Shown piece after piece: positions 5,123 to 33,390 of a stretch of DNA of 33,390 nt. The translations under genes and the position numbers were made by a program. The notes under the pieces were generated by a model, which did not search any database, was not told where the DNA came from, and saw only the letters and a list, made by a program, of their open reading frames with translations. Numbering within the stretch: the first letter of the stretch is position 1; the number at the start of each line of letters is the position of its first letter. Origin of the DNA: Pigoraptor vietnamica. Taxonomy: Eukaryota > Opisthokonta > Filasterea. The stretch is from contig CALSCQ010002136.1 in assembly GCA_943704525.1 (NCBI GenBank), positions 1 to 33,390 on the forward strand. The letters run 5' to 3'.

Positions 5123-7529
<2,407 letters not shown>

Positions 7530-7669: not shown

Positions 7670-9418
<1,749 letters not shown>

Positions 9419-9565
9419 GTACGGCCCACGGGTGGCCAGTCCAGAACCGCCACCGCCACAAGCCGTCGGTTGGGAGAATGCACTACGATAGCGCGTGCAT
9501 ATTGCGTCAGAAGCGAGACCTTCGCTGACAACAAGCTCAAACAGGTCGTGGAAGCACAACAGCAC

Positions 9566-9620
9566 CTGTAATAGTAGAGACCCGCTGCAGCACCGACTGC
9601 GGCGACGCCGGCCGCAACAT
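9566..9620 (-). other. CPOX: Possible mitochondrial-leader exon of CPOX
   Basis: Reading leftward, a pyrimidine-rich tract ending in CTCTCTGCAG precedes this stretch, which encodes [18 protein letters not shown]. The peptide has Arg, Ser and hydrophobic residues with no acids, as in a mitochondrial presequence. A GTGCTG donor follows at 9565. Splicing to an AG ending at 9520 would join it in frame to the main CPOX exon, but that intron would be only 46 nt with a weak acceptor. The alternative is read-through of the long open frame from 9676. Confidence 0.4.
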
Positions 9621-10257
9621 GGCCGCTTCTGCAGAGAGAACAACACTGTGAGTGGGATAGGAAGAGTTACGCACATGAATAGACATTGTTACGGCGCTGT
9701 CCCCCTGTACGAAGTTGCGCACACCTTATCACACGCCGGGTTCCGGTCGCTGCTGCAGAGTGCATGTGCCGCGCCACTGGACGCGCAGCAGACGCGGCGC
9801 GCCACAGCGCCCGACGGCAAACAGCCGCGCAGGCAGACGACATTGCAACGGCTGATCAAAGCACTCGCAGCCACTGCCGGGAATGGGGGTAACACTGAGA
9901 CAGATGCCGGACGCACCACAACGAAGACGATTCAGCGCGCCAGCACTTATGTTGAGGGAAGGAAATCGCACACACTCACTCTCTCTTTCTCTCCCTGTGT
10001 ACGGCAAAGTGCGCAAAACAGCGAGAGGGCAGTAGCGGCGAGAGAGAGAGGCAGTTCTCGCGCTCCACTCGCCGTGTCCGCGACTCGCACGTGACGTTCA
10101 CGTGACCGTATATCACGTGATCAGCCACGTCAGCACAATCGTTGTGACGTGGCGAGTGCTGACACATCAAAATACTACACAGCCGAGAGAGGAGCTGAAA
10201 GTCACAGCGACCAAACGCACTGCGTTTCCGTACGCAGTCGCGCGCATCGCACCCGCC
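9621..10257. other. Divergent promoter region between CPOX and the macroglobulin gene
   Basis: This spacer separates two genes transcribed away from each other. I see no supported coding region. It contains a pyrimidine-rich tract near 9974-9997, a purine-rich GAGA-type stretch near 10021-10055, and the ACGT-core cluster listed separately. Any 5' untranslated exons of either gene would lie here. Confidence 0.6.
10088..10152. promoter_or_regulatory. Cluster of ACGT-core palindromes (TCACGTGA and CACGTCA types)
   Basis: Within 65 bases there are CACGTGA at 10088-10094, an overlapping TGACGT at 10092-10097, perfect palindromes TCACGTGA at 10098-10105 and 10113-10120, CCACGTCA at 10125-10132 and its exact inverse TGACGTGG at 10145-10152. 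TCACGTGA matches the E-box bound by MITF/TFE-type bHLH factors in animals; TGACGT is the CREB/bZIP core. The cluster is 105 to 170 bases upstream of the macroglobulin ATG and on the CPOX upstream side. Binding is inferred. Confidence 0.6.
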
Positions 10258-13200
10258 ATGCCCCGTATCACTGCGCGAAGGGCGGGCGCGGTCGTCGCGG
10301 CCCTTGCCGCCGCCTACCTGGTGGCCGTCGCCGTGCTCAGCCTGGAGGACCCCGCCCCAGACAAGGGCATCTTTCCCATCTTTCCCATGCCGCGCGGAGA
10401 CGACGGAGAGGGCGCACAGCAAGGGGCGGTGCATCTGCACGGAGAGAACGGGGACGGGGGCGCTGTCGACGGCAATGTCGAGGCAGTGGACGGGGACGCC
10501 GGGGATCAGCCGGTGCGACTCGCCGGGCTGCTCCAGAAGAGGCCGGGCCGGCTTCCACCGCCCGTGGACTTTGGCATCGAGCAAGTGAAGCGCGAGGTGA
10601 TCGACGACAACTTTTTTCCGCCCGCGGGCGACGACAACGAGATGTTGCGGCGCAGTCTGTTTGGGATCGCGCGCTACCTGACGCACGTGACCACCGACAA
10701 GCCAACGTACCGTGCGGGCGACACGCTGTACGCGCGCGCGTTCGTATTGGGCGCCTTCGATCGCGTGCCCTTCATGCATTCGAACGTGTACCTCGGCAGC
10801 ACGGCGGAGGTGCTTGCCCCGTCCGGACAGATAGAATACTCTGGGCCGGTGACCGCCAACGGCACCATTCCCTTCCAGTGGGTGGTGCCGACAACTGCGG
10901 TGGGCGGCGAATACACGCTGCGCATCACACACAAGAGAGACGGGTGGGTCGCAGCGTTGTCGCGTCGTCTTGTGAGCTCTGTTTTCACTCCGTGCCTCCC
11001 CCCCCCCCTTTCTCCCTCTCTTCTTGCTGACTTGAGCTACTCGCGTTGAAGGTTCCCGCCGGCCGTGCGGAAGTTTACGGTCCAGCGAACGACACGTCCG
11101 CGCATGCGTCTTCTCCTCGAGTTCGCCGAGCGTGGTTACGGACCCGGCGAGACGGTCACTGCGACGCTCACGGTGAGCATTCAGCTCTCGCCCTGGTCGC
11201 GTTTTTCACAGGCGAGACGTGCAAGCTTGTTTCTATTCCACTGATATTTAATCGCCCGGCGTGTGTGCATGCGCAGGTGTCGCGTGCAGAGGGAGGCATT
11301 CCCGTGGGCGCGGAGGTGACTTTCTCCGCGCGCGTCGAGGGGCGCTCCATCGCTATTCCCGGCGCGAGTTTGTCTCTGGGCGAGAACGGCAGTGCGACCG
11401 CGTCCTTTGCGCTTCCCGACAGAATCGACGTCGACGAAGGCAGCGTGACGGCCGTTGTGCGGGACGGCGGCGTGGTCGAGTCGACAACAAGGACCCTCCC
11501 ACTTGTCGTCAAGGCGCTCGTAGTGAAGGCGTATCCGGAGGTGCGTGTGCTCTGAATGGATCGCTTGTGCGTGTCCCTGCGGTTGGGAGTGGAAGCTCTT
11601 GGCGGTGATGGCTATGTTCTGCACCGTGTGCGCTGCCTGCTGTGCGTATTAATGTAACGGTGCCATATTTATAGTTCGGAATTAAGGCAGCGCCTTTAGT
11701 GCACGGAGCTTGTGCGGCAGAGCAAATTGCCATCAGAGGCTCATTTTTCCGTCTTCCGCTGCTGCGCTTGCTTGTAGGGCGGCGATCTCGTTCTCGGCCT
11801 TCTCAACGGCGTGTACTTTGAGGCGCGCGACACCCGCGGCGAGCCCGTCAGCATTGCGGGATACGTCGTTGCCCACGCGCCTGGCACGCAGCCCGTTCTT
11901 GGCGACGACGCAAGCCGTATTGTGTCCGTCACCGCCGAGCACGAAGGTCGGGCTTACGCGCGGTTCATCCCGGTCGCGGGGAAGTGGTATTCGCTTGTGG
12001 TCGTGCGCCCTGCGGGCGTGAAGGCGACCTTCCCCCTCCCGGAAGTGAAGGACGCGGGCGTGGCGATGATCACGGCTGAACCGGCGTATGCGAGCGGAGA
12101 GGCCATCTCGGTGCGTTGGGAGGACAAAGGCGCTTGCGCTCTGCGTGTTCTCTATTCGCTGTGCATTCGCTCCCGTGTCAGTTGCGGTCTTCGAATGGTG
12201 GTGAATCGATGCTAACAAAGTGCGTGCAATCGCAGCTGCGCGTGAGCGGAACGCAGCCAGGGGAGTACAAGGTGGTTGCATATCGACGCGAGCGCGAAAT
12301 AGGCTTCGCCGACGTCAGTATCCGAGAGCCCGGCAAGCCTGTCGACGTCGCTCTCTCTCTGCCTGTGGGCGCCGCGTTTGAGGGCGTGCTCCGCATCACT
12401 GTGTACGCCAAACCCAGCCGTCCTGTGGCCGAACGCCTCGTCTATCGCGTGCCGCACTCGCGCGTGCGTGTCGTCGTAGAAGCGGACTCGCCAGAGTACG
12501 TTCCCGGCGGCGGTGTGGACGTCACGGTGACGACGCTGGACGCGGCAACCGGAAAGCCCGTGCGCGCTCTTGTCGGCGTCACTGTGACCGACGATTCGGT
12601 GCTGTCACGCATCGAGCCACGCCGGCGCGCCCCCCGCCTCCCCGAAATGGCGCTGCTAGAGGACGAGGTTGAGAGCTTTTTCGACCCCGCGGGGTACGTG
12701 TGCGACGAGCCGCTCACGGGCATCGATGAGAAGTGCGCGCGCAACATAGACCTCCTGCTCGGAACGCAGGGATGGCGCCGGTGGGTGTACACGGACGAGG
12801 AGCGGCTCGAGGGCCAGCGCGGGGCGGCGGACCAACGCCTGCTCGCTATTTTCAAGGGGGTGGGTGTTGTAGTGTTGATGTGCGACTGCTTCGCGTCAAA
12901 TGCATTCGCGCTCTTCTAATTCTTTCTTTTTGCAATGACGGCTCTCATGACACTCTCACCTGTGTCGCTGTGGTCGTGCAGGAGCGCGCCCCTCCGAAGA
13001 TTTTCCGCGCTATGCCAATGGCGATGGCCATGCGCGAGCAAGTTGCCGACGCAGCCCTCGCGGCCGCCGCACCTGTGCCCGCCCCTCCGGCGGAGTTCGG
13101 GGGCGCGGGTGTGGCAATGGACGACGGCGTGCAAGCGGACGCGGATGTGCAGGAAGTGGATGCGCAGAACATTGAAGCGGATGTGGACGTGGTCGTAGAC

Positions 13201-15726
13201 GCGGAGGATGCCGACATCGACGAAGTGGACATTACCGAGAATGCGAACGCAGGGGCAGCGGAGGCCCCTGCTGGCGTCGCGCAGGAGGCCATTATGGAAC
13301 CCCGTATCAACGCCAAGATGATGGCGGACGCTCCCGCCGCGCGCATGATGTTTCGTCCGCCAGTCGTCTACGTGCCGCAGCCCATGTACGTGCGCGAGTA
13401 CGCGCACACGCTGCGCCCGGGCTGGCGTGCGGACGAGCGGACCGACTTTGTCGAGACGGTGTACTGGTGCGACCACATACAGACGGGTGCCGATGGCCGC
13501 GCGACCGTGCGCTTCTCACTCTCGGACCTCGTGACGGAATACCGCGTTGTCGTGGATGCGGTGGCGAAGGACGGCGGGCTCGGTTCGCACGACGGCGTAT
13601 TGCTGCCGGCGCGCAAGGCTTTTGCGGTGGAGGCGCGCATCCCGCCGGAGCTCACCCTCGGGGACTCGCTCGTCATGCCCATCGCCGTCCTCAACAGGGC
13701 GTCGCGACCGGTGGAGGTGACGCTGCGTGCGCGCATGGACGGCGGCACCGACACCATCGGGCAGCCGCTGACGACCTATGTGGAGGCACATGCGAACGGC
13801 GTCGCGCACCAAACGCTCTCGCTGCCCGTGCCGGGGACGGACGCGACTACCGACGAGGAAGCATCGTCGCTGGGCGAGCGTCGCATTGTGTTTCAGGGCG
13901 AGACACTGCCGAAGACGAGCCAAGACCTTCGCCTGCGCGACTCGCAGACGCTGTCGACGAACGTCGTCCCGCTGGGGTTCCCCGTGAAGGGCCATGCATC
14001 GGCGCTGACCAAGACGGGCGTGTCGTACTCGCTCGCCGTGCCAGATGACGCGCTTCCGGGCGCGACGTGGCTGACGGCGCACGTGTACCCGTCGCCGATC
14101 GGCAACATCCTCAGCGCGCTCGAAGCGCTCATCCAGGAGCCCTACGGCTGCTTTGAGCAGACGAGTGCGACGACGTATCCCATGGTCATGGCGCTTCGCT
14201 TCCTGACGCTCAATCCGGGCGCACCGGGGGCGGCCGCGGCAATCGAGCGCGCGCGTACGCTCCTCGAGAAAGGGTACGACCGGCTCGTGGGCTTTGAGAC
14301 GAAGGACGGCGGGTTCGAGTGGTTTGGGCAATCGCCGGGCCACGAGGCGCTCACGGCGTACGGGCTGCTGCAGTTTCTGGAGATGCGCGAGGTGATTCGC
14401 GTCGACGCCACGATGACGAAGCGCACGCAGGAGTGGCTGCTGTCGCGCCGGAACGCCAAGGGCGGGTTCAACCTCAACAGCGCGCGTCTGGACACGTTCG
14501 GAGGTGCCACAGCTCTTATCACAAAGTGAGTCTTGCGGTGTAATTTTTCGCAAATGTGGCAATCGTCCGTCCGGCGCGCCAGTGCCTTGTTTGGTGATGT
14601 CGCGCCCATTTTTGCTTATGTGTGCACGCGCGCTTGCAGCCTGTACATCACGTGGTCGCTGAGCGAGGCCGGAATTCCGCTGAGGTCCGAAGAGGTCGCG
14701 TATGCCCGCGAAGCCGCGCGCACGTCCACCGACGGGTACGTGCTGGCGCTCGTTGCGTCGATTCTCTACAACGTCAAGGACGACAAGGCGGCCGCTAAGG
14801 TTGCCGCCACGCTCGGCGAGCTTCAGCAGAAGGACGGGGGTATCATACAGGCAGAGACGTCCATCACGAGCTCCGGTGGAGAGGCACTCGTGGTGGAGAC
14901 GACTGCGCTCGCTGCGATTGCGTGGTCACACGACATTCAGCAGTTTGGCGACAATGCATTCCGCGCCCTCTCCTTCCTTGGCAAGAACTGTCAGGGCGGC
15001 CGTTTTGCGTCGACGCAGGCGACCGTCTTGGCGCTCAAGGCAATCCTCGCGTATCGCGAGGCTGTCGCGAAGAGGGGACCGGGCGACACGGGCGCCGTCG
15101 TTACCGTGTCTGTCGACGAGCAGGACGTTGCGCGGGCCGAGTACGCTGCGGGCGCGACCGATGCCGTCGTATTTGACTCTCGGAAGCCCGAATTCGCCGG
15201 CCTTGCGAAGGCGATCGCCAAGCCCGGCACGCACAACGTCCAGGTGCGCATCGAGCAGGCGGGGAAGGGGCGCTCTGTCATGGTGGCAGTTTCGTCGGAG
15301 ATGACGACGCCCCGGCCGCCGACATCGCTGGGCGCTCGCATTGCGCTCAACACCTCGCTGTCCGCGGACAACTTTGTCCAGGGCGACTCTGTGGACGTCG
15401 TTGCGACCGTGGCGAATTTGCAGGCGACGCGCTCTCCCATGACGACAGCAATCATCGGATTGCCGAGCGGACTCGAGCCTCGCCATGACAGCCTGCGAGA
15501 GCTCGTCGACTCGAACGTGATATCGTACTTTGAGGTCACCGGCCGCGCCGTCGTGCTCTACTGGCGGACGCTAGCGCCGAACGCAGTCGTTCGCGTGAAG
15601 TTTGACGCCACGGCGGTGCACCCGGGCACGTTCACGGGTGCGGCAAGTCGCGCCTACCTGTACTACACGGACGAGCTCAAGCACTGGGCAAACCCGCTGA
15701 GTATCACCATATCACCGCGCACTTAA
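10258..15726 (+). CDS. Alpha-2-macroglobulin-like thioester protein, membrane-anchored
   Basis: Exons 10258-10943, 11052-11172, 11277-11540, 11778-12110, 12236-12859, 12982-14525 and 14640-15726 join in phase to 1552 residues, the family's usual size. An N-terminal hydrophobic segment (AGAVVAALAAAYLVAVAVLS) acts as signal peptide or anchor. Macroglobulin domains follow (for example PEGGDLVLGLLNGVYFEARD), then an acidic Ala/Asp/Glu/Met-rich stretch around residues 716-780 where the bait region is expected. The A2M domain follows (RTDFVETVYW) and then the thioester motif EPYGCFEQT, with Cys1066 and Gln1069. The remainder is an alpha-helical thioester domain and a C-terminal beta-sandwich domain. 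Such proteins trap proteases or tag surfaces covalently once cleaved. The local sequence around the thioester resembles bacterial members more than vertebrate GCGEQ. Confidence 0.92.
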
Positions 15727-16287
15727 GACTGACGGGGAGCGCCTTCGTGTAAACCTTAATTAAAAAATTAAAGCTACGGAGTCCGACGTCTAGTATTGCG
15801 TGCACGTCGAAAAAAGGTGGCATGCGCAAAACTAGTTCAGTTAAAGGCGCGCCGGTCGAGAACAGACGTTACTGTTTTTGTCAATAACGACGGAATTCGA
15901 AGCTTGCCATGTGGATTATATTGCAGCCGTAGACAAGTGCGGACCAGTGTCACGGAATGGTGCAATCCTTCGGTCTGCGCGCATAAATTCTCACGTTCAT
16001 TTCACTTGGCACTTCCACTGAGGGAAGCCGTGAACGCGGACGACGGTGGCATCATGTAGCGATAGCATCTGTTCGTGGATGGAACATTAACAAAGGCACA
16101 AGAATCACCAACGTAAGTTGCCGCTCGATCAGTACTTAAAGTTAAGTTAACATCTGAGTGTAAGTTTTTTTGTGAGTCAGAGAGTGATGTCACAGCCAAA
16201 GGCACAACAGCCGCCGCCGGCTGCAAAACAACCGGTCAAATTTCTGCAGAGCGAGGGCCCCCTAAAGTGACTGTTCAGTAGTTTAAT
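15727..16287. other. Intergenic spacer between convergent genes, no gene seen
   Basis: This separates the stop codons of the macroglobulin gene and the transporter gene. It begins with an AT-rich patch near 15750-15772 that could carry 3'-end signals, though no AATAAA is present. Two short frames have no recognisable features and look non-coding. Confidence 0.55.
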
Positions 16288-19013
16288 TCACGACAGCCGG
16301 GAGCGCTTTGTCTTTCGCCGCATCGACCTCAGTATAAGCATTTGCGACCCAATTAGGACAATGAGAAAGCCAATTATGGCAAAGAACGGCGCGAGCGAAC
16401 GGTGCTCGATGCTGTGCCCAAAGGGGACCTCGACGTTCATGCCGAAGAGGCCGACGCAGAGGGACATGGGCGCCGAGATGCTCGCGACCTGCGTGAGCCG
16501 CTTCATCTGCAAGGAGCCGTCGAGCATCCGCTTGTTGATCGCAATGTCCACCTGCGACGCGCGTTACGCGGAAGCGTTCAATGCCGTGTGCGAAAGAAGA
16601 TTGACCCGAGAGGGATAGAAGCAAGGGGCTGTCAGCGCACAAGTACAAGGCCGCAGCCGACAGGTCCGCGTGACCTTTTCAAACACGATAGTCGAAGAAA
16701 AAAAAAAGGAAAAAGAAAAATAAGAAAAGAGAAAACAGGAAATGCTTACACCAACTTCTGCACGGCACCACCCACCAGTGCGAGGTACGTGCTCTGCGAG
16801 TCGCGTACTTCATCGAGCACGGCCTCAACGCGCTTGACCATTCCGCCCAAGTGCCCGTGCAGCCCACGAAAGTACAGGAACGGACTCCACAGCGACTCGT
16901 CCACAGGCGCTGCGCCGGGCGTTGGGGCGACCTCCGGCGCCACCGGCAGCGCCCCTGCGTTCGCATCGCTCGAAAGGAGGTCGATCGGCCTGATGGTGTG
17001 TCCCAGCATGCCCGTGTGACCGAGACGGAGCGTGTCAGCGTCGCCCCAGTGCGTCTTGAGGGCCGCGGCAATGTCGCGCTTTCGCACAGCCTCTCGGTAG
17101 AGGAGCATCGATCGCCGCGAGCAGCACGAGAGTCGCATGAGGAGATCCTGGGGCGCAAAGGCAGCGACACGTATTGAAATTGCCGTTCCAGAATACCAGT
17201 GCCATAATGTAGGCAGACTCGAATGCCTTCTAGTTTGCATCCACACGCACTCATACAGCAATCGGTACAAAACCGCACAAATGCACGGAACGCGCACACG
17301 CTCTGCCCACCTCTCTCTTCTCCGGCCGCCCGTCGTTCTGCGAGAGAAAGTCGTGGATCATCGTCGTGTCGCTGAGGCTCTCCCTCGCAATCTCCGCGCA
17401 CGTGATCAGCCGCTCGCACGCAGTGACCATGTCCCAGAGCGCGGCGTACACAACAAAGCGCGGGAAGGAATTGACCGTCAGGCGGTTCGACAGCGTCGGC
17501 TTCTCCGCACGCGGGCCGTACATCTTCCACTTTCGCGAGCTCTCCGTGAAGATGCGGTTGAACGACGACCACGGCCGAAGGTGCGTCGTCAGCACCATCC
17601 CCGAAAACACGACGACGCACAGGCTCTGCACGCGCGACCCGTCGTCTTCCTCGGCGTCCGCGTGGGTATCCCCCCACGACGCCTTCCCATTCTCGTCAAA
17701 GACCGACGCAAGAGGGTCTGTGAACGGGTCGTCGTCCCACGCCGGGGCCACGCTGTGCGCGCGCGTCCGCACCTGATTCCGCTGCTGGCGGCCCCCCACA
17801 GTCGACGACGGGCCCAGAAGGTGCTCTGTGGAGCCGCTTATCCGCACGAAGTCGTCCTGAAATGGGGAGAGACCCGCCTCCACGTCCTCCTCAGGCACGT
17901 CGCCGCCGCAGTACGTGCCAAGCGCGCGCTCGGCTGCGGCGAGCACATTGTGGGGGAGGCCCTGCAGCTTGAGAAAGGTGTACGCGTCGTAGGTGGCGAC
18001 GCGCTCGCGCCCGTCCTCGGAGAGGCAGTCTTCCACCGTGAGTGGGTGGAGTCCAAACACCTGCGACAGAGGCGGCCGCACTATGAGCTGGAATGTGTGC
18101 GTCCGTGTGTGATTGCAAATAAGCCGCGTGTGGTGCTGCGTGTGTCTGAAGAGGGGAAAGAGCCGCAGAGAGCCGCATAAACACACCTCGCCGAGCTGCT
18201 GGAAGTCTGCGATGGAAGGGTGGAAGAGGTCGATCCAGAGCGGACCGCCCTCGCTTTGCATGGCCTCGCACGCCGTGTCCGACGAGAAGTCCTTGAAGCT
18301 GTGGAAATTCATCATGTGCCCCGATTCGCACAGCACCGTAAAGGCCGACTGCGCGTGGGACGGCAAGAGTGAGTGGCGCGTCTCACGGCGAGAGTGAACC
18401 ATGAGTTAGAGTAAGTGCCGTGAGACGGACAGAATAGGCAAATAGAAACTGTTTCCGCGCTGGGCGTGTGTGCACGCTCCCGTGTGTCGGCTTCCCAATA
18501 ACAAAGTGCGTTACACACCTTCGGGTGCCCAATTCCCCCGTCCGGGTGCATGTGCCCTATTCGCTGCACGGCCTGAGCGTGTCGCTCGAGATGCGGGTCG
18601 CTGCCTACGCGGCGAAATGCGCCCGAATTCCCTCCCGGCTGCTGCAATCGCTTACCGATGACATTGCCAATATGTGTGCCCGAGGCCCTCCTCTGACCGT
18701 GCGCGGGCGACGCGGCTCCCCCACGCCACGACAGCGCCGTCTCGATCGAGGCACGTAGCGACTGTCTTCGCGTGCGAGGGGCGAGATCCGGCTCCAGCGT
18801 CTCCACGCTCTCGGCATCGCTCGATACAGCGGATATGTGGTCGGCGTCGTTGTGCGACATGGGCGAGTAATGCGTGCCTGACGCGGGCGTGCGACGGCCA
18901 CCGCCGAGCGCGGACGTGATGCGCTGCCATAGGGGAGAGTTGCTGCCCTGGGACATGTCGCCGGATCGCCCATTTCGGTCGATGAGTGGCGTGAGGTGCG
19001 ATGGGCGCGACAT
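16288..19013 (-). CDS. CorA/ALR-type divalent cation (Mg2+) transporter
   Basis: Reverse-strand exons 19013-18519, 18348-18187, 18087-17311, 17147-16752 and 16551-16288 all join at phase 0 into 697 residues. The CorA cytoplasmic domain shows GPLWIDL and FGLHPLTVEDCL. The C-terminus has two membrane helices with the diagnostic GMN at 647-649, at the end of the pore helix (SLCVGLFGMNVEVPFG), then FFAIIGFLIVLIGSQMLIL and a basic tail. The long Ser/Arg-rich N-terminus (about 165 residues) and an Asp/Glu-rich insertion (near WDDDPFTDP and ADAEEDD) make it closer to fungal ALR/MNR transporters than to compact bacterial CorA. It probably imports Mg2+ across the plasma or vacuolar membrane. The start is the first true ATG at 19013. 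Confidence 0.9.
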
Positions 19014-19475
19014 GGCGGGAAACGCGCCACTCCCGCGTTCACGCGCCAACTGTCAGCGAGGGAAGCGGAACAACAAGAGCGCTCGTTTGTCACATTCGCA
19101 CAGTGCCACAGAGCATAAGTATGTGTGGCCACTTGAAGCGCTGCGGAAAAAAATCGCCAACGAAACGTGAGAGAAAAAGGGAAGTAATTCGACGTTCTGT
19201 TGTGTCGTGCTGAACATTTAACACCCACCGTAGAGTGAACACCGCGTAACATCCACCCTTGCATGGAGCGGACGGAGCAGTTCCGAGTCAACAAAGCGCA
19301 CATCCGTCCCACTGAGCCAACACGCACAGCTGCGAATTCAAATCCCTCTAGAGTCCAGTCAGTCCCCTCGCACGAAGAAGAGGAGGAGCCGAGAAGGTCC
19401 TTTGCGAAAGGAGGGGCGAAGGTGCTATCCGTGCTATCGGACGCTTGTGTGGGCGGGGTGAGGTTTCCAGCGAAG
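19014..19475. other. Divergent spacer between transporter and oxidoreductase genes
   Basis: This is the head-to-head promoter region of the CorA-type gene (leftward) and the flavoprotein gene (rightward). The rightward frame is open from 19263, but the predicted 71 upstream residues are polar and Glu-rich. A leader-like peptide begins at 19476, so I treat the upstream part as untranslated. Confidence 0.5.
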
Positions 19476-22307
19476 ATGCGCCCTCCGATTGTGCCGAGGG
19501 GCGCCCTTCGCGCGGCCGTGCGCACAACGTTTGCTTGCCACGTGCGTGCGGCTGTGGGAGTGCGCCCGCAGGCGACCTACGCGACAGATGCAGGCCGCGA
19601 CTACGACCTTTGCGTGATTGGAGGGGGGCCTGCCGGCTTTGCGAGTGCCGTACGTGCGTGGGGTGGGTGTGCGCGTGATGGCGACGTACGCGGAGTATGA
19701 GTTGGTGGCGCGGGGTTTGCGTGCACATGCGCACGCCTGTTCGAGCGTATTGCTGCGCTTGTAACGGCCCACCGTCCGCAATGCGACTGAGTCAAAGCGC
19801 ACCCTTCAGACCTTGGGCGTTCGGTGTGCCTCGTGGAGCGCGGCCATCTTGGCGGCGCAGGCATTCACAACGGGGCCCTCTCGAGCAAGACAATGTGGCA
19901 CCTGTCGCGCAAGAGCCGCGTCGTGGGTGTCCTTGTAACATTTTCGTGATTGATCTCCATCGAACGAGGGTTCTGTTATCTCTGGTCGCAATCTCATCCT
20001 TCCTCCCTCTCGCCTCACGTCTGTCAAGGTGTATGAGACGCTGAGCGAGGCGGGACTCCTGCCGCGCGGCAGCTGGGGGAGTGTTCTGCGTCACGTGAAC
20101 GAGGTGACGTTCACGAAGGAGACGGACATGCTCAAGCAGCTGCAGGCGATGGCACCCAACGGAGGACACCGCGGGGTGACCATCGTCAAGGGCCACGCAG
20201 CGTTTGTGGACCCGCACACCGTCGAAGTGGCGGACCTGAAGGGGGGAAGGAAGACGGTACGTACGTGGGCGCGCACGATGAAGACGCTGTTGCGTGCATG
20301 CATTCGTACGTGTTGTCTGCGGATTTGTGGGGCGATGGCACCTGCGCTTGCACGCTGCACACACACGCATACTCCCTCCTTCTCTCGACCTCTCTTCACA
20401 CCTTCCACCTCCGCACTGCAGATAACGGCGGACAACTTTGTCATTGCGACCGGCAGCCGCCCGCGCGCCCACAAGAGCTTCCCCGTCGACGGCCGCCACG
20501 TGATCACCTCCGACCACATCCAGGACCTTCGCGACTTCCCCAAATCAATGCTCATCATTGGCGCAGGCGTTATCGGTGGGTGGCATGGATGCGTGTGTGT
20601 GTGCATGCGCGTCGTGCTTGCGCTCATACCATCGCAGGAGTGTGGAGGCGATGCTACGTGTCTGTCGCTGTCGCTGATGTGTTGTTTGTGTGCGTGTGTG
20701 CATGCGTCGTGCCTGCGCCCATACCGTCACAGCCGTCTGGTGGTCACTGCCACTAATGTGTTGTTTGTGTGTGGTGTGTGCGTGTGCGTGTGCGTGTGTG
20801 CGCGTTGTTGCGCAGGGTGTGAGTTTGCGACGATCTTTGCAAACTTTGGCCAGACAAAAGTGCACCTTCTCAACGAGGGCAAGTCGCGGCTGCTGCCATC
20901 CGAGGACGAGGACGTCACCAACCTCATCACCACGCAGATGACCAAGACGGGCGTGCACGTGCACAACGACTGCAAGGTGCGCCCACGTGCAGCGCAACGG
21001 CCGCTCGATTGATGCGTGTTGTCCGTGTCCGAGGGTTCGAGAATCCTTTTTTTTTTGCGAACCCTTCGTGTCCACTCTCGCCCTATGAGCTCCCACCCCT
21101 CCTCCCCGCCACTCTCTTGCGATTGTGGTTGACTGATGTTGCGGGCGTGTTACGCGCAGCTGCTGAACCTGGCACTGAAGGCCAACAAGGTCGAGTGCAC
21201 GCTCGGCCGCCGCCGCGCGGGCGCACAGCCGGGGTCCAAGGACGAGTACGAGCCCACGGAGTGCTTCCTCGTCGAAAAGGTGCTGCTGTCCATCGGCCGC
21301 ATTCCGAACCTCGACACGATCAACGTGGAGAAGGCCGGTGTCAAGCTGGACCGCGCGGGGGGAGTGGCCGCCGACAAGGTTTGTATTGCCCCCTCATCTC
21401 GCCGAACCCGTCTTGCAATGGAGTTGCTTATCCGTGCACTCTAACCCTAACCCTATCCCCTCCTCCGCGGCTGTGTTTATACACTGCCGACCGATTCGTA
21501 ACGCAATTTCCTTCTTGTTCGCCACAGCACGCACAGTCCTCCGTCCCTCACATCTATGCCGCCGGAGACGCAACCGCCGACGTCGGTCTCGTGAACGTCG
21601 CCGAGATGGAGGCGCGGCACGCCGTTGAACGTCTCTTCGGCTGCGAGGCGCGCGTCACAACCGAGCTCTCGTACGAAAACCTCTCGACAATCATGTTCCT
21701 CAACCCGGAGGTCGCGTGCGTCGGCCTGAACGAGAGCGAGGCGCGGCGCCGTCTGATTCCGCACCGCGTGGGACTCTACGGCTTTGACGTCGTCCACCGC
21801 GCCCTCATCAACCAGAGCTCGACGGGGTTCGTCAAGCTCGTCGTGAGCGCCGACAACGAGATGCGCCTTCTCGGCATGCGCGCGCTCGGCGACGACGCGT
21901 CGGCGGTGATTCAGACGGCGGCGCTGCTGATCACGGAGGGCAAGAGCATCTCGCACCTCGCGCGCCTGCTTCACCCGCACCCCGCGATTACCGAGGCCGT
22001 GCAGGAGTGCGTGCGCATGCTCTACGGCACGTCCATGTACAAGCCGGACTGCTTCCCGAGCTGCAAGGTGCGTGCATGCAGGCCGCCTGTTTCATTAGCA
22101 GACTGTGCGTGCCAGCTGCTTGCTGTTTTCATTATAAGACTGCGTGTTCGCACACGAAAGCGAGTGCGGCTCTGCGCGACAGGAGGGGACCCAATTCACT
22201 TATACGTCGGACTCCGTTCGGCACACGCGCAGATGCGGGAGTGGTTCCCCGACGTGCGGGAAACCAAGTCGGCGCCGCAGGCTGTCGTCCCCACATATCT
22301 CTCGTAA
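19476..22307 (+). CDS. Mitochondrial-type FAD/NAD(P) oxidoreductase, DLD-like without redox cysteines
   Basis: Exons 19476-19662, 19810-19922, 20029-20256, 20422-20575, 20816-20976, 21160-21378, 21528-22067 and 22233-22307 join in phase to 558 residues. The first ~35 residues are Arg/Ala-rich with no acids (RPPIVPRGALRAAVRTT), a mitochondrial presequence. FAD binding: DYDLCVIGGGPAGFASAV. NAD binding: SMLIIGAGVIGCEFATIF. Second FAD motif: HIYAAGDAT. A C-terminal dimerisation domain ends with HPHPAITEA, the His/Glu region of dihydrolipoamide dehydrogenase. The CxxxxC pair is absent: GGAGIHNGALSSK stands where GGTCLNVGCIPSK is usual, with Gly80 and Ala85 replacing the cysteines. It therefore cannot be ordinary DLD; a transhydrogenase or diaphorase role is possible. 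The substrate is unknown. Confidence 0.88.
20576..20815 (+). repeat. Intron with internal diverged tandem duplication
   Basis: Inside this intron of the flavoprotein gene, a unit beginning GCATGCGCGTCGTGCTTGCG (20603) and ending GATGTGTTGTTTGTGTG (20692) is followed by a shorter diverged copy (20700-20772) with the same start and end blocks. Each copy includes an ATACC(A/G)TC(G/A)CAG element that looks like a splice acceptor. The intron ends in a GT-rich tract before the true acceptor at 20815. Confidence 0.65.
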
Positions 22308-22456
22308 TGAATTCGTCCGCGGCGTTTGGTCGTTGCGCGATTGTCTCTTCCACCCACTTCTTCTCATGGCCGCGTAGATTGGTCATCGTCGACGGCGAAC
22401 GGGTGCAATCCTCTTCGTGTTTTGCTTGCGTGCATGTGACGTTCTGACCGCCACTT

Positions 22457-24122
22457 TCAGCCGTGCGACTGCAGCCAGTTCTCGAGCATGTCGGCGACCT
22501 TCGTCTTTGCCTCGACGTGCACAAAATGGCCGGCGCCGTCCACTCGCGCAACGGTCAACCGACCGCCGAACGCGCGCGCGGATTCTTCTCGCATGACATC
22601 AAACATGCGCGTGTCGATGCACCCGTCCTCGGCGCCCGTGATGCTCAGCGTGGGGATGTTGACGGCAGACGTGATGTCGAGCGCCGCGGACGTGCGAAGG
22701 GCCGCGTCGTCGCCCAGCCACCGAAAGAGAGCGCGGGGGAGCAATCCAATGGGCATTGCGCCGATAGTAACCCAGCGCCGCGCGCACGACCGAGGGCTCG
22801 GCAAATGCGGCGGCGGCCGAAGAGAACGACTCGTGCGCGTCCATCGCGTCACCCACGCCCTCCGCCACAGCGTCACTCTGCGCGCCCTCGTGGAGCATCG
22901 CACGCAGCGCGCCCCACGTGGGCGACCATGCGAGCCACAGGCGCCGCAGCAGCCAGTGTCCAGACAGCGGGCCGAGGAGAATTTCCGGCAACAGCGGCAG
23001 CTGAAAGAACAGCATGTACCACGACATGAGCACTTGCGATGGAAGGCTCCAGACGCCGGCATCCATGCCGTGTGGGACCGCCAGGCCCGCAAGCGACCGA
23101 ACGGAGGACGAGGGGCCATGGAGTGCGCCGAACGCGTACGCAACTGCGGCGCCCCAATCGTGGCCGATCACGTGGACGCCGGCGTGCGGGGAGAGGGAGC
23201 GCACCCACGCGAGCACGTCGTCGGCGAGGGATGCGAGCGAGTAGTCGTCTCCTGCAATGGCCGACGCGGGCTGCGCACGATGGGCGAGCACTGAGTTACA
23301 GTGCGAAGAGGCACCAGACACAGACGCACCCACGGTACAGATCCATTTACAGCCACAAACTAGCGAACCTTACCTCGTAGCCACGCATGACCGGGGCAAC
23401 CACGCGCCACTTTAACGCGCTTGCGCGGCAGAGGCGTCCCATGAGGTGGCGGAACGTGACGGCCGTGTCGGGGAAGCCGTGGAGGAGGATCACGACCTGC
23501 GCCGTCGGTGCACTGCTGCCGCACGCCCACGCAGAGAGGGGGACGGTGTGTCCCGGCGCAGGCCCCGTCGCATTCACGTGTCTGCAGGGTCCGCGAGATC
23601 AGCCAGAGGCATGCCATTCTGTCACTCTCAACACGGCTCGAAGAACGATGGCTTGTCAGTGACGCAGCATTCCAAGGCTGCTCTGACTCACAAAGCCATG
23701 CGGTCGCATCATCCCTTCTCGCTCAACACCCATGCTTCCCCTCTCTCTCCCTCAGAGGAGTCGATGGACACGCGTCTATGATTTAAGCTGATCCGACAGC
23801 TCTCCCTCAGTGCCCACACGCACATTCTCACTGCGTCGGCGACGGGCGGCGTGTCTCGCACGCGCGCCGCCACAGCCCGCTCCGCTTCTCCTGGCGACAT
23901 CACGCTGACCGGCACTCGCGCAAGCACCGTCCACGCAGCCCACACGCACACAACACCAACACACAGCCTCAACAGAGAAAGGAGTCGCCTTTTCTGCGTG
24001 GAACGCGAAGTGCGCCCACGCGAAGCAGGACCGCCATTCGCGGTGATGTGCGGACTTGTGCCGTCTGCGTCGCGCGTGCGCAGCCGCAACCGCGCAACGC
24101 CATTGACTCGCGCGGAGGGCAT
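22457..24122 (-). CDS. Epoxide-hydrolase-like alpha/beta hydrolase, probable one-base frameshift
   Basis: Reverse-strand exons 24122-23824, 23581-23374 and 23270-22457 give about 439 residues once one surplus base is discounted. A basic N-terminus precedes a membrane segment (LLSLLRLCVGVVCVWAAW), as in membrane-bound epoxide hydrolases. The catalytic domain shows HGFPD at 134-138 (oxyanion loop), the nucleophile Asp207 in GHDWGA, a lid segment (YMLFFQLPLLPEILLG), a later acid in TGAEDGCID and the base His in DGAGHFVHVE. Up to residue ~315 (YYRRNAHW) one frame is used; from RALFRWLGDD onward the next frame is needed. The switch falls at or near a run of five C (plus-strand G 22735-22739). It could be a sequencing error, a broken allele or a real +1 shift. 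Likely substrate: an epoxide or ester; unproven. Confidence 0.85.
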
Positions 24123-26555: not shown

Positions 26556-28130
26556 ATGACGTCCCCTTCAGTATTCGCCGGAGCAGTAGTGTGCGCACTT
26601 GCCCTCTGCTCGCTCTTCGTTGACGCTGCGCCCATGCCCGATGTGGCAAAGTCGGTTGTGTTTGGCGATTCGTACGACGACAACGGCAACGTCTATCGCA
26701 TCTCGGGCGGGCAGTGGCCTCTTCCCATGTACTACAACGGTCGCTTCTCGAACGGCCCCATCTACAACGGTGCGTCTCGACTGCGATCCACGCCCTTCTC
26801 TCCGTTTTCTGTGTTGTGCTGATGGCAACGGCGTGATCCGTGTGACAATATTGCGCCTTTTTCTGACGTCTTTATGCTTCCCTCCCTCGCGACAGAAATT
26901 GCCGCGACCAAGCTGGGCATGACCCTGTTCAACTACGCGTATGGCGGCGCAACCACCGATAACGCTTACGTGCAGGGTGAGCATGAACCTATGGGACTCT
27001 GCGCGCGGATAGCGAAAGTGCACGAGCCGCACACTGTTATGTACCTACACACGCTCCGCTCATCTCGATGCACTCTTCACACTCGCAGGCTATTCGGGAC
27101 CGACGAGCAACATTCCCGTCCCCAGCGTGGCGGATCAGATTCAAACCTATCTTGGCGACAACAATGCGCCGCGGCCGAACGACCCCTCCGTCGTCTTCAC
27201 CATTGCGGGCGGCGGCAACGACTACTTTTTCCTCGGCATCAATTCGAACGCGTCGCGCACCACGGACAACCTCGTGCAGGCAGTGCGCACTCTCTACGAG
27301 GCCGGCGCTCGCCGCTTTGTCGTCGCGAACCTGTTCCCCGCGGCCCTCATCCCCTATGTGCAGGGGGACGAGAACGTCAAGGCGCTCTTCTCGTACTTGA
27401 CGACCGCGCACAACGCCTACCTCGCGCCCAAGCTTGCTGCGCTGCGGTCGTCCGTCGGCGACGCCTCGATCGACATTCTCGACATTAACAGTATTTTCAT
27501 TAACCTCCGGGACAACGGCGCGTCGATGGGCTTCACTGCGCCCATCAGCTCGTGGGTGTCCTTTCTGTTCCCTCTTGGTTGGCCCCTCCTTCAACTCGCT
27601 TCATTCTCACACACACCGTGAACACACGCACAAATATCCTCTGCCAAGGCGTTCGTTGATGTGACGGTGTGCACGTTGGGTTTGTGCCTCCTCGCTAACA
27701 TGAATTGGTCCGTGCCCAGGGCGTGCCTCAACAGCCAGACGGGAGAAGTGTGCGCGAACCCGCAAGCATACGTCTTTGTGAGTATGCCCCCTTGCAACGC
27801 CATGGACCCATGGCCAAACAAGCGCGCTGATCGCATCCTCTCTCCCTCTCGCAGTTCGATGTGTACCATCCGACGACGCGCGTGCACGCCCTCATCGCAA
27901 AGCAGAACATCGATCTCGTTGCGTCGCCCATTCAGAAGTGGCGCGTGAGCATGAGCGACTGGCAGGCGGCCTTTGACGAGTACAAGGCGGGCGCTGGCTG
28001 CGACAAATCGGAAGCAGTAAACGAACGGCTACTTGACAATCCACTGTTGGGAACCAAGGGTCCGCCCTCTCCACATGCTTGTGTGAAATGGCACTCGGGG
28101 AAAAACTATTTCGAAATCCGTCGTTTGTGA
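26556..28130 (+). CDS. Secreted GDSL/SGNH-family esterase or lipase
   Basis: Exons 26556-26769, 26896-26976, 27089-27551, 27720-27777 and 27855-28130 join in phase to 363 residues. A signal peptide (about residues 1-24: VFAGAVVCALALCSLFVDA) indicates secretion. All SGNH blocks are present: block I FGDSYDDNGN with nucleophile Ser39, block II YAYGGATTDN, block III AGGGND with Asn142, and block V FDVYHPTTRVH with Asp274 and His277. The order and spacing resemble plant- and fungal-type GDSL esterases (RFSNGP after block I, CLNSQTGEVCANP before block V). Likely substrates are acyl esters of lipids or polysaccharides. The last ~75 residues after block V are unlike the family core and include a Cys-containing tail of unknown role. 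Confidence 0.9.
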
Positions 28131-28985: not shown

Positions 28986-31900
28986 ATGCGCGATTCTGTT
29001 GCGCGTGAGCCCTTGTGGCATCCGCGCGTACAACGGGAAAGGCCGCCGGGTGTGTTGTTGTCCGCGGCCGCTGTCGTTGCGCTGCTGAGTGCGATTGCGT
29101 TGTGCGCGGATGCGCTCGTCGTCGGCGTCTTTCACACTGGCGGACTCGGCGATTCCGTTCTCCCCGTGCTTTATCCCAATGCAACCGCGGCTGATTTCGA
29201 CTTCAGCGACGGCGGGATGGCGCGCGTGGCATCGGCGCTGTCTGCGGCGCAGAGTGCGAGCGCGCTTGCGGGCCTGCCACTCCTTGTCGTGGATGCCGGC
29301 GACGCGTCGTCCCTCACGCCGCTGGGGATGGTCGCAGGGCCGCGGATTATCATGGACTCGCTCGCGCCGTTCTATCACGCGCGCGGGTGAGTTGTGTGTG
29401 TTTGTGTGTGCGGTTTCGTGTTGTGATATTCCTGTGCTTGATGCGCTAGTGGGCATTCTACGGGGTTGACCGTTGCGCACACCATGGGTTGCCGTCGTCC
29501 CTTGTGGCCTAACTCTTTGCTCCCCCTTCTCTACCGCAGTATTGGCATCCGCGATCTCCAGCTGGGCTCGCAGGCGCTGTACCTTGCGCTTGCGCCGCGC
29601 CCCGTTGGGTCCGGAATCCCTCACGTGCCCGTCGTTTGCACCAACTGCGTGTTCGACGACAACAACCTCTCGAACCTCGTACAAACGAGCGCCACGGTCA
29701 CGCTCCCCAATCCCGCCGGGGGTGTCGTGCGGGTCGCCGTTGTCGCGTTCGTCGGCAGCCAGGACGCGTGCAAGCTGGTCGATTGTGCACTCAACCGCTA
29801 CACTTTTCTCAGCGAGCAGAGTGCACTCGCGGGGGAGGTGGCGCGTCTCGTCGGCGGCGGAAGCCCTCCCGACGTCGTCGTGTGCCTCTCGTCCCTCACG
29901 AACGGGCGCTCACAGGTCGTGGCGCTGTCAGGTGCAGTGCCGCGGGTGGACGTGTGGGCGGTGTCGGGCGAGGGCGTGCCTCCGCCGGCCGACGGCCTCC
30001 GCGCACCCCTTCTGAACGGTAAGTGGAAGCGGCTGTACTTCCTACGCCACCGAACAATGATATGATCCCACGCTACTCTGTGCTTGCATTGTCGCTGAGA
30101 TTCATAGTTGCGTGCGTGCAGGAGGGCGGCCGTCCTTTCTCTCGGTCGCCACAAACGGTCGCGTGGGCTGGACGAACGTCACCGTCGGTTCGTCGGCGTC
30201 GGGCGCTTACGTCGCGCTGCGCGGTTGCAACAGCTCCTCACCCACGGGGGCACCCTTTCCAGCGGGCGGTTGCTTCCGGCAGGACCCCGCGACCCTCGCC
30301 AATGTCACTGCGCTGCAGCAGTCCGCCGACGCCGTCATGAACGCGCCCCTCGGATCGCTCAACGCGTCGCAAGCGCTGTCTGGCCCGCTGTCGCAGTGCG
30401 TGGCGTCCGAGTGCCCCGCGGGGTCCTTTGCCTCAGACGCCGTGCGGAACGTACTGGGCGCCGCGTGCCAGGTGGTCTTCCTGACGGCCGCGTCCCTCGC
30501 CGCGCCCATGCCCAGCGGCACTCCGCCGACCCTCGCGTCCATTGCGGGGATTGCGGACCCTCGAACGCGCGTGTCCATCTTCACGCTGAACGGCGCCGCT
30601 GTCGTTTCGTCCCTCCTGAACGCCGTGTCGCGCCTCACACGGTCGGTTGCCTTTGGAAACGACACGGTGCGCGCGGCCGCCATCGCTGCGGACCCTTCGA
30701 TGAGGCGATTTGTGCAGGTGCGTGCTTTTTAACGGGCTTGACGTGGAGTGTGCATGTCCGCTCTGCGCGCATGTGCGCGTGCGCGTGTGTGCCAGCATGA
30801 GCACGTGTTTGAATTTTGTGTGGGCTGACGCAACCGTGCACGCAGGTGGCGGGCCTCCGCTTCCTCTTCGATCCTTCTCAATCCGAGTCGTATCGTCTTT
30901 CGCGCGTCACGCTCTCCCCCAAAGTGCCCAACATCTTCTTCGACCCCTACACCGACTTCCGCGTGTGCGCATCCAACGACATGCTCTCGGGCGCCTTTAA
31001 CTTCACCGCCATCGCGGCCGACGCAACCGACGTTCACGACTTTGGGCCGTCCCTCGCCGGCATCCTTGTCAGCTACGCCTTGAAGCTGTCGGCGTACGCC
31101 CCTTCGCACACTCTGAACGCGACCACCATGACACAGCTGAACACCGCCCAACTTGGCGGTGCACTTGCGGGAGTGGTCGCGTCTGCGCGCAATGCGTCGA
31201 CGTATGGCGGCGGCGCCTTGACCGCGGCTGCGTTTGAGCAGTCTTACGGGCGCATACTCGTCATCGGCGTCGGCGGCACGAACCTGTTCCAGTGCACGGA
31301 TGCGTGCGTCAATGGCGTGTGCATCGCGAACAACGTGTGCCAGTGCCAGGCTGGGTGGTACGGGCCCGTGTGCGCTCAACAGACGAGGGCGGCGCAGGCT
31401 GGCGCCCGCGTGGGGGCGATCATTGGGGGCATTGCTGGCGGCGTCGGCGCAGTTGTGGTCATGGCGGTGATCGTGTTTCGTGTGGGTCGTTTCAACGAGC
31501 GCTTTCGGCGGACGCTCATGCGCTCGTGGGTCAACGAGATCAAGTACGAGCACCTGTCGTTCCTCGAACAGATTGGCGAGGGCGGCTGCGGCGTCGTGTT
31601 CAAGTGGGTCGCGCTGGCACCTTGCGCGCACGCGCGAAGTGTTCGTTATTCGTCTGTGTTGGAGTCGAGGCAGTGATTTGGGCTGATCCGATATTATTAT
31701 TGTCTCTTGTGTTCACGCGAATTTGAGCACGTGTTATTATGCGCCCCGTGGGGAACTGCATCATTGCGTGTGTGTGACGTCCCTCCTACCCTCGCAGAGC
31801 GCGCTACCACGGGACAATCGTCGCCGTCAAGAAGTGCGATAACATGAACATACGCGAGCGCGACAAGCCTATGGAGAAGGACGCCGCCTTTCAACACACG

Positions 31901-33342
31901 CCGTCGTTCGCCGACTGTGACGAGATGAGCGTGCGCATGCGGACGGCGCGCGCCCTCAGCACGGTTTCCTCCGTCGCCTCGAGGGCGTCGGATGCCCGCA
32001 GAACGCGGCGAAGCACCGCGTACAACAACAGCGTCACGAGCGGCGGCAGCACCGTGTCGAATTCGCGTGTCATGCGCAGCGGGATGTCGGACTCCCGGAG
32101 CACGGGCGTGCGCAGCGCCTTCGTGTCGACGGCGATGGGCGAAGAAGTGTCGATGCCGCGCGCGATCCTCGGGCGCGTCGTGGGGCTGTGGCAGAGCGTG
32201 GGCGATTGGTTCTCGGAAGTGCGGCAGCGCCTCGACAACAAGGCCGTTACGCTCATGGACGAAATTGAGATCATGAGGTGGGGAGCATGCACATCTGGCA
32301 CTTGATGGGTTTCTCGCTCTGCTTTGTCGTCTCCCTCTTTATGTGCGCGGTATCGCCCACTGTGCCTTGTCCCAGTGCCTCCCTTCCCACCGTCTCTGCT
32401 TCTCTGCGTGTGCATGTGCATCTCCGCTGTCGGCCCCGTTTTAACGCCCTTGTCTCTCGCGCAGCTCCCTGCGCCACCCGAACGTGCTCCTCTACATCGG
32501 CTGTTCGCGAGCGCCCAACCTCTGCATCGTCACGGAATACATGTCACGCGGATCCCTCAACGTGAGTGGCGCGACTACTGCGACGTTCGCCCCCCGGAAC
32601 CCTCTCTCATGTGCATCGCGACATTTATGCCCTACGTCCCAGTCGCAAAATTGTTGTTGCGCTGCGTCGCTTGTGTTAATGTTACTTTCTCCCTTCCGCA
32701 GACCATCCTTCACGATGCGCACATAGAGATCACATGGCCTCTGCGCTTTGAGCTGGCCCTGGACATCGCCTTGGGGCTCAACTACTTGCATTGCCACAAC
32801 CCCGTCATTCTCCATTGCGACCTGAAGGTGCGAGTGCGTTTGTGCGTGTGTGCGCGTGTAGTTGCGTGTGTGCCGTGCGCGTGAGTGAGCGTAGAGTGAG
32901 CCTTCATGGCGACTGACGCTCACCAAATTGCGTTGCATCCTCTTCAGTCCATGAACATTCTCGTCGACGACCGCTGGGTTGCAAAGGTGCGTGCGAGGCG
33001 CCTGTGCCCCTTCCCTCGAGCCAATGGGCACTCCCACATCCAATTCTCTTTGGTATCGTGCTGATCCCGCATTGATACGCGCTCGAAGGTGTGCGATTTT
33101 GGCCTCACTCGCTTCAAGGACTCGCGGCGTTCCGAGACGGGCCTTGTCGGCACGCTCCTGTGGATGGCCCCGGAGGTACGCTCTCACGTGACAGCACATG
33201 CTCCGCTGTGTGTCCCTGGGTGAAATGACTATCTTTTACTGTCACCCAAGTGAGTAGTCGCTAATAGCGCTGTTCCCACGCGCTGCCCTGCCCCTCAGGT
33301 GCTCCACGGCGAGAAGTACGTCGAGGCAAGCGACATATACAG
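28986..33342 (+). CDS. Receptor kinase with degenerate 5'-nucleotidase ectodomain, 3' partial
   Basis: Exons 28986-29386, 29540-30018, 30122-30717, 30846-31603, 31798-32277, 32465-32561, 32702-32827, 32948-32986, 33089-33175 and 33299-33342 join in phase to 1035 codons, then run off the right edge. A signal sequence (LLSAAAVVALLSAIALCADA) leads into a 5'-nucleotidase-like fold whose metal motifs are mostly gone (HTGGLGD at 50-56, DAGD at 103-106, LGSQ at 142-145). A 5'-nucleotidase C-terminal domain follows (GLRFLFDPS, FRVCASNDMLSG, FGPSLAGILVSYA). Then come an EGF-like Cys cluster (CVNGVCIANNVCQC), a TM helix near 682-705 and a TKL-like kinase: GEGGCG near 736, Lys756, ~125-residue insertion, Glu900, HCDLK with Asp977, DFG at 995-997 and APE. 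Probably a plasma-membrane receptor. The ligand is unknown. Confidence 0.88.
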
Positions 33343-33353
33343 GTGCGGCAACT

Positions 33354-33354
<1 letters not shown>

Positions 33355-33390
<36 letters not shown>
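33355..33390. repeat. Terminal poly-C run
   Basis: An uninterrupted run of C ends the window, 12 bases after the last donor site of the receptor-kinase gene, and so probably lies inside its next intron. It may be a real homopolymer at which assembly stopped, or a sequencing artefact of the read end. Confidence 0.8.

Follow-up and report, generated by a model that had tools for sequence, protein, structure and literature searches.

The 33,390-nucleotide contig CALSCQ010002136.1 of the filasterean Pigoraptor vietnamica (assembly GCA_943704525.1), hereafter the window, ends in a gene at 28986-33342 on the forward strand whose product is probably a single-pass TKL-type receptor kinase with a catalytically dead CD73-type 5'-nucleotidase fold as its ectodomain; a role in binding a ligand or a partner is what we infer for it. 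The gene models and alignments also show ten further, paralogous ectodomains encoded by this genome, which likewise lack the catalytic site; nine of them are joined to membrane outputs of five kinds. The assembly searched comprised 32.5 Mb on 1395 contigs, and the window is the entire contig with the handle C879; other contigs are named in the same way.

The region 28986-33342 is predicted to be one gene, encoding a signal sequence, a two-domain 5'-nucleotidase fold, an EGF-like module, a transmembrane helix and a TKL kinase (Table 1). Its ten exons are separated by GT-AG introns, and the gene is truncated by the contig end. Among the GT/AG sites allowed, four exon chains of 1032-1035 codons remain open, and these vary solely at 30122/30125 and 30711/30717. 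The start codon at 28986 is the sole ATG ahead of the hydrophobic segment in that open frame. After retraining on correctly oriented loci and with the window gene's codons excluded (2238 codons, with 43 introns from the paralogue models), a gene finder recovered exons 2-10 whichever of the five intron penalties was set. The match was exact at -10 and -12; at -7 to -9, exon 4 gained one additional short, spurious intron. The start was missed by this finder, which placed it at 29217 or, at -7, read an internal exon from 29253 as the continuation of an upstream gene. Its splice tables derive from paralogue models of an earlier finder that had been trained on the window gene's introns, and the recovery is to that extent not fully independent; in the training of the earlier finder, from which the paralogue models date, three of eight loci were read on the wrong strand, and the training set contained the window gene. 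A sweep of the whole window with the gene finder gave unreliable gene limits.

Introns were compared with those of nine paralogues by alignment column and phase. Intron 1 has the identical column and phase in all nine and intron 2 in six; intron 3 agrees in phase but is displaced by one column in two of the nine (C877 and C822 are not comparable there), an offset that arises because the exon list uses 30122 and the aligned protein 30125. The two introns that the initial annotation had flagged as possible gene boundaries, 30718-30845 and 31604-31797, each interrupt a domain, since 5_nucleotid_C crosses the junction of exons 3 and 4 and exon 4 bears the glycine-rich loop of the kinase. The continuous reading of ten exons proposed in that annotation was confirmed, as were its signal segment, transmembrane helix and kinase. 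The EGF-like cysteines that it noted do have a six-cysteine spacing, but the Pfam EGF models fall below their cut-off (best 20.4 bits, cut-off 37.5). A single transmembrane helix separates ectodomain and kinase in this sequence-based model; a weaker third hydropathy peak (1.74, threshold 1.6) lies at residues 404-422 within the C-domain, and 7tm_3 is absent from the window protein in Pfam.

A search of the genome with PF02872 marked 16 exon pieces on 11 contigs besides the window's, and a second probe of the genome gave no additional contig with a family member. One of the 11, C853, has intact catalytic motifs (GNHD, GGHDH; Metallophos 3.8e-12, 5_nucleotid_C 6.2e-41), its sequence being taken from the nucleotidase-like portion of a fused, longer prediction. 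The other ten carry the ectodomain as it is found in the window. Homology over both domains places the predicted window ectodomain, by descent, in the 5'-nucleotidase fold family: against a profile of the ten paralogues it scored 225.6 bits (N part 93.8, C part 123.5), where the top of 300 shuffles scored 6.1, and Pfam places 5_nucleotid_C in the same C-domain, as had been read by the first annotator for both domains. Metallophos was not matched in the window protein at E<=1. A profile of all 11 ectodomains matched the 5'-nucleotidase 2z1a at 5.3e-79, covering positions 2-524 of its 528, and also CD73 (about 1e-72) and UshA (about 1e-21); paralogue C1118 alone matched CD73 (4h1s) at 4.7e-35 over residues 2-520. 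Six cysteine columns are invariant across the 11 aligned ectodomains. Structure prediction, which had been suggested as a check, succeeded in part. An AlphaFold2 model of a paralogue C-domain with its EGF module, with window rows in the alignment, reached a pLDDT of 73 and a pTM of 0.67 at best (53-63 for the other four), and 2z1a and CD73 led the Foldseek matches to it (2.6e-17, TMq 0.69), but the N-domain model failed, as described below.

Nine catalytic positions, the metal ligands and the His-Asp dyad of these enzymes, were read in CD73 numbering. At D36, H38, D85, N117, H118, D121, H220, H243 and 245 the window protein has G, G, D, I, R, Q, S, E and a gap, so one letter of the nine is retained, the D85 equivalent. 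This bears out the earlier statement that nearly all metal and catalytic ligands are missing, and the loss is common to the family. The readings TGGLG, DAGD, LSSL and VSGEG given for the individual motifs also stood, but the GNHE site reads GIRD (within IGIRDLQLG) and not LGSQ. Across the ten paralogues 6 of 90 catalytic letters are kept (one N117 and five His at 245). Elsewhere in the N-domain, at columns where 2z1a and C853 have the same letter, the corresponding count is 220 of 500 (permutation p 1e-4).

A different pattern was observed for the substrate contacts, whose roles were taken from excerpts of PMC12586806 and PMC7508162. Of 60 contacts the paralogues keep 46; the figure for the remaining C-domain columns shared by 2z1a and C853 is 318 of 640 (p 0.029, or 0.00065 when every C column serves as the comparison). 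All six are present in C145, C938 and C1273, five in C204, C243, C822 and C1118, and four in C877 and C1130, so that nine of the ten paralogues hold four to six; C802 and the window protein hold none. In the latter, R354, N390, R395, F417, F500 and D506 are replaced by V, T, A, P, D and F, and SGAFNF stands in place of NGGDGF; elsewhere among conserved C columns this protein keeps 26 of 64, and comparison of its zero of six with that figure gives p 0.055. The per-position counts therefore indicate that the catalytic half has been erased in all eleven proteins, while the binding half survives in nine of them and is missing from the window protein and C802. Loss of the catalytic site throughout the family is supported by these alignments, as is the use of a dead nucleotidase fold as a receptor head as a family trait.

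The outputs attached to these heads were assigned from gene models and Pfam. They comprise four TKL-like kinases (C1118, C802, C938 and C204), one tyrosine kinase (C877), one guanylyl cyclase (C145), one class C G protein-coupled receptor (GPCR; C1130), two multi-pass proteins (C1273 and C822) and one protein, on C243, that is truncated by the contig end ahead of any transmembrane segment. The C877 kinase is closest to receptor tyrosine kinases (FGFR, Mer, EGFR, Met) and that of C204 to TKL kinases (CTR1, TNNI3K, IRAK4, TAK1). C1118, C802 and C938 were called TKL by their likeness to the window kinase; they reach 53-69% over exon pieces, where others among the matches listed reach 32-49%. The TKL-type paralogues share the domain order of the window protein, and one hydropathy peak precedes the kinase in each of C145, C877, C802, C204, C938 and C1118. 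C145 combines a kinase-like region with a guanylyl cyclase (6.5e-54), and C1130 a class C seven-transmembrane domain (7tm_3, 1.9e-45) with an Ephrin_rec_like match below cut-off. In C1273 and C822 the head and EGF module sit on regions of seven hydropathy peaks each, in which no Pfam transmembrane family was matched at E 0.01. Models were edited by hand in C145 (an exon added) and C1118 (an intron removed and the start set), and by eye in C822, at its N-domain junction, and in C877, at the exons of the C-domain.

Some further features of these genes were observed. On C145:1-8000, minus strand, the order is dead head, EGF module, transmembrane helix, a kinase-like region that lacks the catalytic HxD (it reads HGRLTSAN) and, last, the cyclase domain. 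The tyrosine-kinase receptor of C877 has a frameshift in its nucleotidase C-domain (about 2430-2450 of the reverse complement), reflecting decay or an assembly error. Six more contigs, C813, C325, C1238, C942, C314 and C1193, match the window protein solely at residues 583-686 (E 6e-6 to 0.005); with matches in the EGF module, transmembrane helix and juxtamembrane region, these are perhaps kinase receptors with other heads.

In the ectodomain tree, C877 (tyrosine kinase) and C1118 (TKL) are 63% identical and grouped at 100/99, and C204 (TKL) and C1130 (class C GPCR) are also grouped at 100/99. From these two pairings it follows that the head has switched outputs two or more times, provided that the C877 model does not join two genes. 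The window ectodomain lies on a long branch (2.24), and its gene appears to be among the most diverged members of the head family.

The kinase domain of the window protein shows, by eye, a glycine loop (GEGGCGVV), VAVKK, HCDLK, DFG and APE. Among the best 60 of 103 matches to solved kinases CTR1 leads, followed by SOBIR1, MAP3K12, RIPK2, MAP3K20 and IRAK4, with roco4 also near the top, and it is therefore predicted to belong to the TKL group. HCDLK is found in the window, C1118, C802 and C204 (C938 is unreadable there). Genome-wide it matched 17 times, against 3 for its control; for the HRDLK-type pattern the counts were 83 and 5, and 73 of the 83 spell HRDLK. Patterns extended further into the codon that follows miss genes that have an intron after DLK. 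The window kinase has a Ser/Arg-rich insert in exon 5, and inserts occur, by eye, at the matching place in C1118, C802, C938 and C204. Non-RD kinases often serve immune receptors, which is a hint at most. For the genome as a whole, PF07714 (PK_Tyr_Ser-Thr) gave at least 177 exon matches, led by eight single-frame kinases above 250 bits.

Like CD73 and UshA (4h2i, 2z1a, 1ush), members of the window family show a two-domain fold across the whole ectodomain, and the C-x4-C pair of the window protein (CVASEC) occurs as in venom and CD73-type enzymes; it is absent from 2z1a and C853. Unlike CD73 and UshA, the window protein has lost the metal site and the His-Asp dyad together with the substrate contacts, and has an EGF module, a transmembrane helix and a kinase attached. 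Plant receptor kinases resemble it in having a TKL-like kinase on the intracellular side of a single transmembrane helix; other TKL kinases differ from it in that the window protein has a nucleotidase ectodomain and the minority HCDLK catalytic loop. Scans of viral and prokaryote contigs with C1118 peptides gave 2 and 18 pattern matches, none of them confirmed, a result that says little about eukaryotes.

Venus-flytrap heads are also known on natriuretic-peptide cyclases and Venus kinase receptors. Together with the ANF_receptor heads of mGluR and GABAB receptors (an excerpt of PMC12716839), they likewise represent one two-lobe head across receptor classes, but the Venus-flytrap fold is unrelated, the head described here being nucleotidase-derived. 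A nucleotidase C-domain as head is shared with class C GPCRs: excerpts describe a 5_nucleotid_C ectodomain on a class C GPCR of Capsaspora (EFW44378.1; PMC3251606) and 5_nucleotid_C with Ephrin_rec_like ectodomains on class C (glutamate-type) GPCRs of choanoflagellates and other animal relatives (PMC12716839). Paralogue C1130 has their architecture; unlike theirs, the window head is joined to an EGF-like module and a TKL kinase. Nucleotidase heads on class C GPCRs are thus already in print, and the distinct architecture suggested in the initial annotation is in part anticipated; among the matches listed from the open-access literature there was no kinase or cyclase with a nucleotidase ectodomain. 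The excerpts of PMC3251606 and PMC12716839 contain nothing on catalytic residues or on nucleotidase heads on kinases or cyclases, and the word 'nucleotidase' is absent from the excerpt of PMC10445921.

A possible course of events can be outlined. The ancestor would have been a secreted or surface ecto-5'-nucleotidase; once its metal site was lost, what remained would have been a hinged module of two domains, able to bind without cutting. The cleft of CD73 closes on its ligand; in the receptors, cleft closure, rearrangement of a dimer, or both, might be passed through the EGF module and transmembrane helix to switch the inner domain. For most, C1118-like, paralogues a nucleotide or nucleoside would be the likely ligand. 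For the window protein another ligand, or a role as a non-binding partner beside a nucleotide-binding paralogue, would be likelier than direct nucleotide binding. We tentatively suggest, with the balance somewhat against it, that the dead ecto-5'-nucleotidase is a second, independent 'flytrap' that mostly reads nucleotides uncut, the window kinase having taken on a new ligand or partner role. If so, one lineage mounted a nucleotidase flytrap on the same receptor classes (class C GPCR, cyclase and kinase) as the animal Venus-flytrap. The suggested recipe for a receptor head would be to erase the catalytic half of an enzyme, keep the binding half and hinge, and attach any output. Eleven ectodomains in one genome, on TKL and tyrosine kinases, a cyclase, a GPCR and multi-pass proteins, would form a natural series for hinge-closure signalling, and the same series bears on whether a protist senses extracellular nucleotides by single-pass receptors.

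Among narrower readings of the window receptor, one that is possible but on the doubtful side is that it is a partner subunit, which would bind nothing small, pair through a putative CD73-type dimer surface and supply the kinase. Consistent with this, CD73 is a non-covalent dimer of two-domain, hinge-joined subunits (an excerpt of PMC12586806), ten paralogues are present in the genome, and the window ectodomain has its long branch. That the receptor itself senses a nucleotide or nucleoside in the cleft of the dead fold is unlikely: the fold is shared and nine of ten paralogues retain most contacts, but the window protein retains none and has lost NGGDGF, a p value of 0.055 being suggestive and not proof. 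The binding module for nucleotides or nucleosides envisaged at the outset, a 'nucleotide sensor', appears to fit most paralogues better than the window member.

That the window gene is decaying and without function is improbable. Both of its sites are lost and the C877 frameshift may represent decay within the family, but the reading frame stays open for all 1032-1035 codons across ten exons, the kinase motifs continue through DFG and APE, and the invariant cysteine columns include those of the window protein. It is still less probable that the protein remains an enzyme, one that uses other chemistry or metal ligands sited elsewhere; it does keep the D85 equivalent, and five paralogues have a His near 245, but one of nine catalytic letters in the window protein and six of 90 in the paralogues are far under the retention at other conserved N-domain columns. 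Scarcely credible is a gene-model artefact in which an adjacent secreted nucleotidase-like gene and a kinase gene were wrongly joined, for although the unaided finder does fuse genuine neighbours elsewhere, such as the upstream lipase region with the receptor gene, half of the C-domain, the EGF module, the transmembrane helix and the glycine loop lie within one exon, both flagged introns fall inside domains, the gene has introns whose column and phase recur in paralogues, and the other TKL-type paralogues have the same domain order.

Several observations weigh against the preferred reading, that of a receptor kinase with a dead CD73-type head. The window protein alone matched the PDB just at E 0.0049, and AlphaFold2 gave no usable model of the N-domain (C822 single-exon fragment; pLDDT 51, pTM 0.37). 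The kinase stops at subdomain IX, its C-lobe missing, because the contig ends in poly-C; the missing lobe was not recognised among 10 matches elsewhere in the genome, where contig ends were not checked individually. Most paralogue models were hand-adjusted. At three of the 15 site columns (H38, F417 and F500) the reference enzymes C853 and 2z1a disagree, and five of the six catalytic letters kept are the His at 245, in an uncertainly aligned stretch. The excess of retained contacts over other conserved C columns reaches only moderate significance and could in part have a structural cause. With zero of six contacts in the window protein, the sequence names no ligand, and C802 likewise keeps none. 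In the tree five of ten inner branches are open and both enzymes adjoin C204/C1130 at 60/73; it does not show the dead heads as one clade separate from the enzymes, and catalysis was therefore perhaps lost more than once.

Table 1. Predicted features of the receptor gene; positions are those of the window.
Feature	Position	Strand	Content or evidence
Exon 1	28986..29386	+	Start codon, hydrophobic (signal) segment, start of N-domain: HTGGLG replaces HTNDxH, DAGD is kept
Hydrophobic segment, likely signal sequence, residues 23-41	29052..29108	+	Kyte-Doolittle mean 2.61
Exon 2	29540..30018	+	N-domain: GIRDLQ (for GNHEFD), LSSL (for LSHL), SGE (for GGHSH)
Exon 3	30122..30717	+	End of N-domain, linker, start of C-domain; alternative ends 30125, 30711
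5_nucleotid_C, residues 382-548, split by intron 3	30385..31013	+	PF02872, E 1.3e-6, 29 bits, cut-off 23.6
Exon 4	30846..31603	+	Rest of C-domain, EGF-like module, transmembrane helix, juxtamembrane region, kinase glycine-rich loop; frame unbroken
EGF-like module	31293..31379	+	Cysteine residues 642, 646, 651, 657, 659, 668
Transmembrane helix, residues 684-702	31419..31475	+	Kyte-Doolittle mean 2.55
TKL kinase domain, exons 4-10	31560..33342 (start approximate)	+	Pfam Pkinase 9.9e-36
Exon 5	31798..32277	+	N-lobe strand with VAVKK, then Ser/Arg-rich insert ahead of helix C
Exon 6	32465..32561	+	Open chain and retrained finder
Exon 7	32702..32827	+	Open chain and retrained finder
HCDLK, non-RD catalytic loop	32813..32827	+	Motif pattern
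Exon 8	32948..32986	+	Open chain and retrained finder
Exon 9, DFG to APE	33089..33175	+	Open chain and retrained finder
Exon 10, final exon on contig	33299..33342	+	Open chain and retrained finder

Besides the motifs in Table 1, exon 3 contains CVASEC, LTAASLAA, IADPRT (2z1a: VRRRES), QNGGGIRA and VLPFGN. The C run that reaches the contig end (about 33352-33390) is probably an assembly artefact. Four other genes were recognised in the window, all on the forward strand. A GDSL lipase (PF00657, 1.6e-18) lies upstream of the receptor gene at about 26600-28100, and an alpha-2-macroglobulin family protein with the thioester-type motif PYGCFEQ (TED 1.7e-23, A2M 4.2e-11) within 8936-23294. A subtilase (PF00082, 2.4e-24) was found within 5123-7529, and a member of the amiloride-sensitive sodium channel family (PF00858, 1.8e-48), which is best known from animals, within 338-4442.

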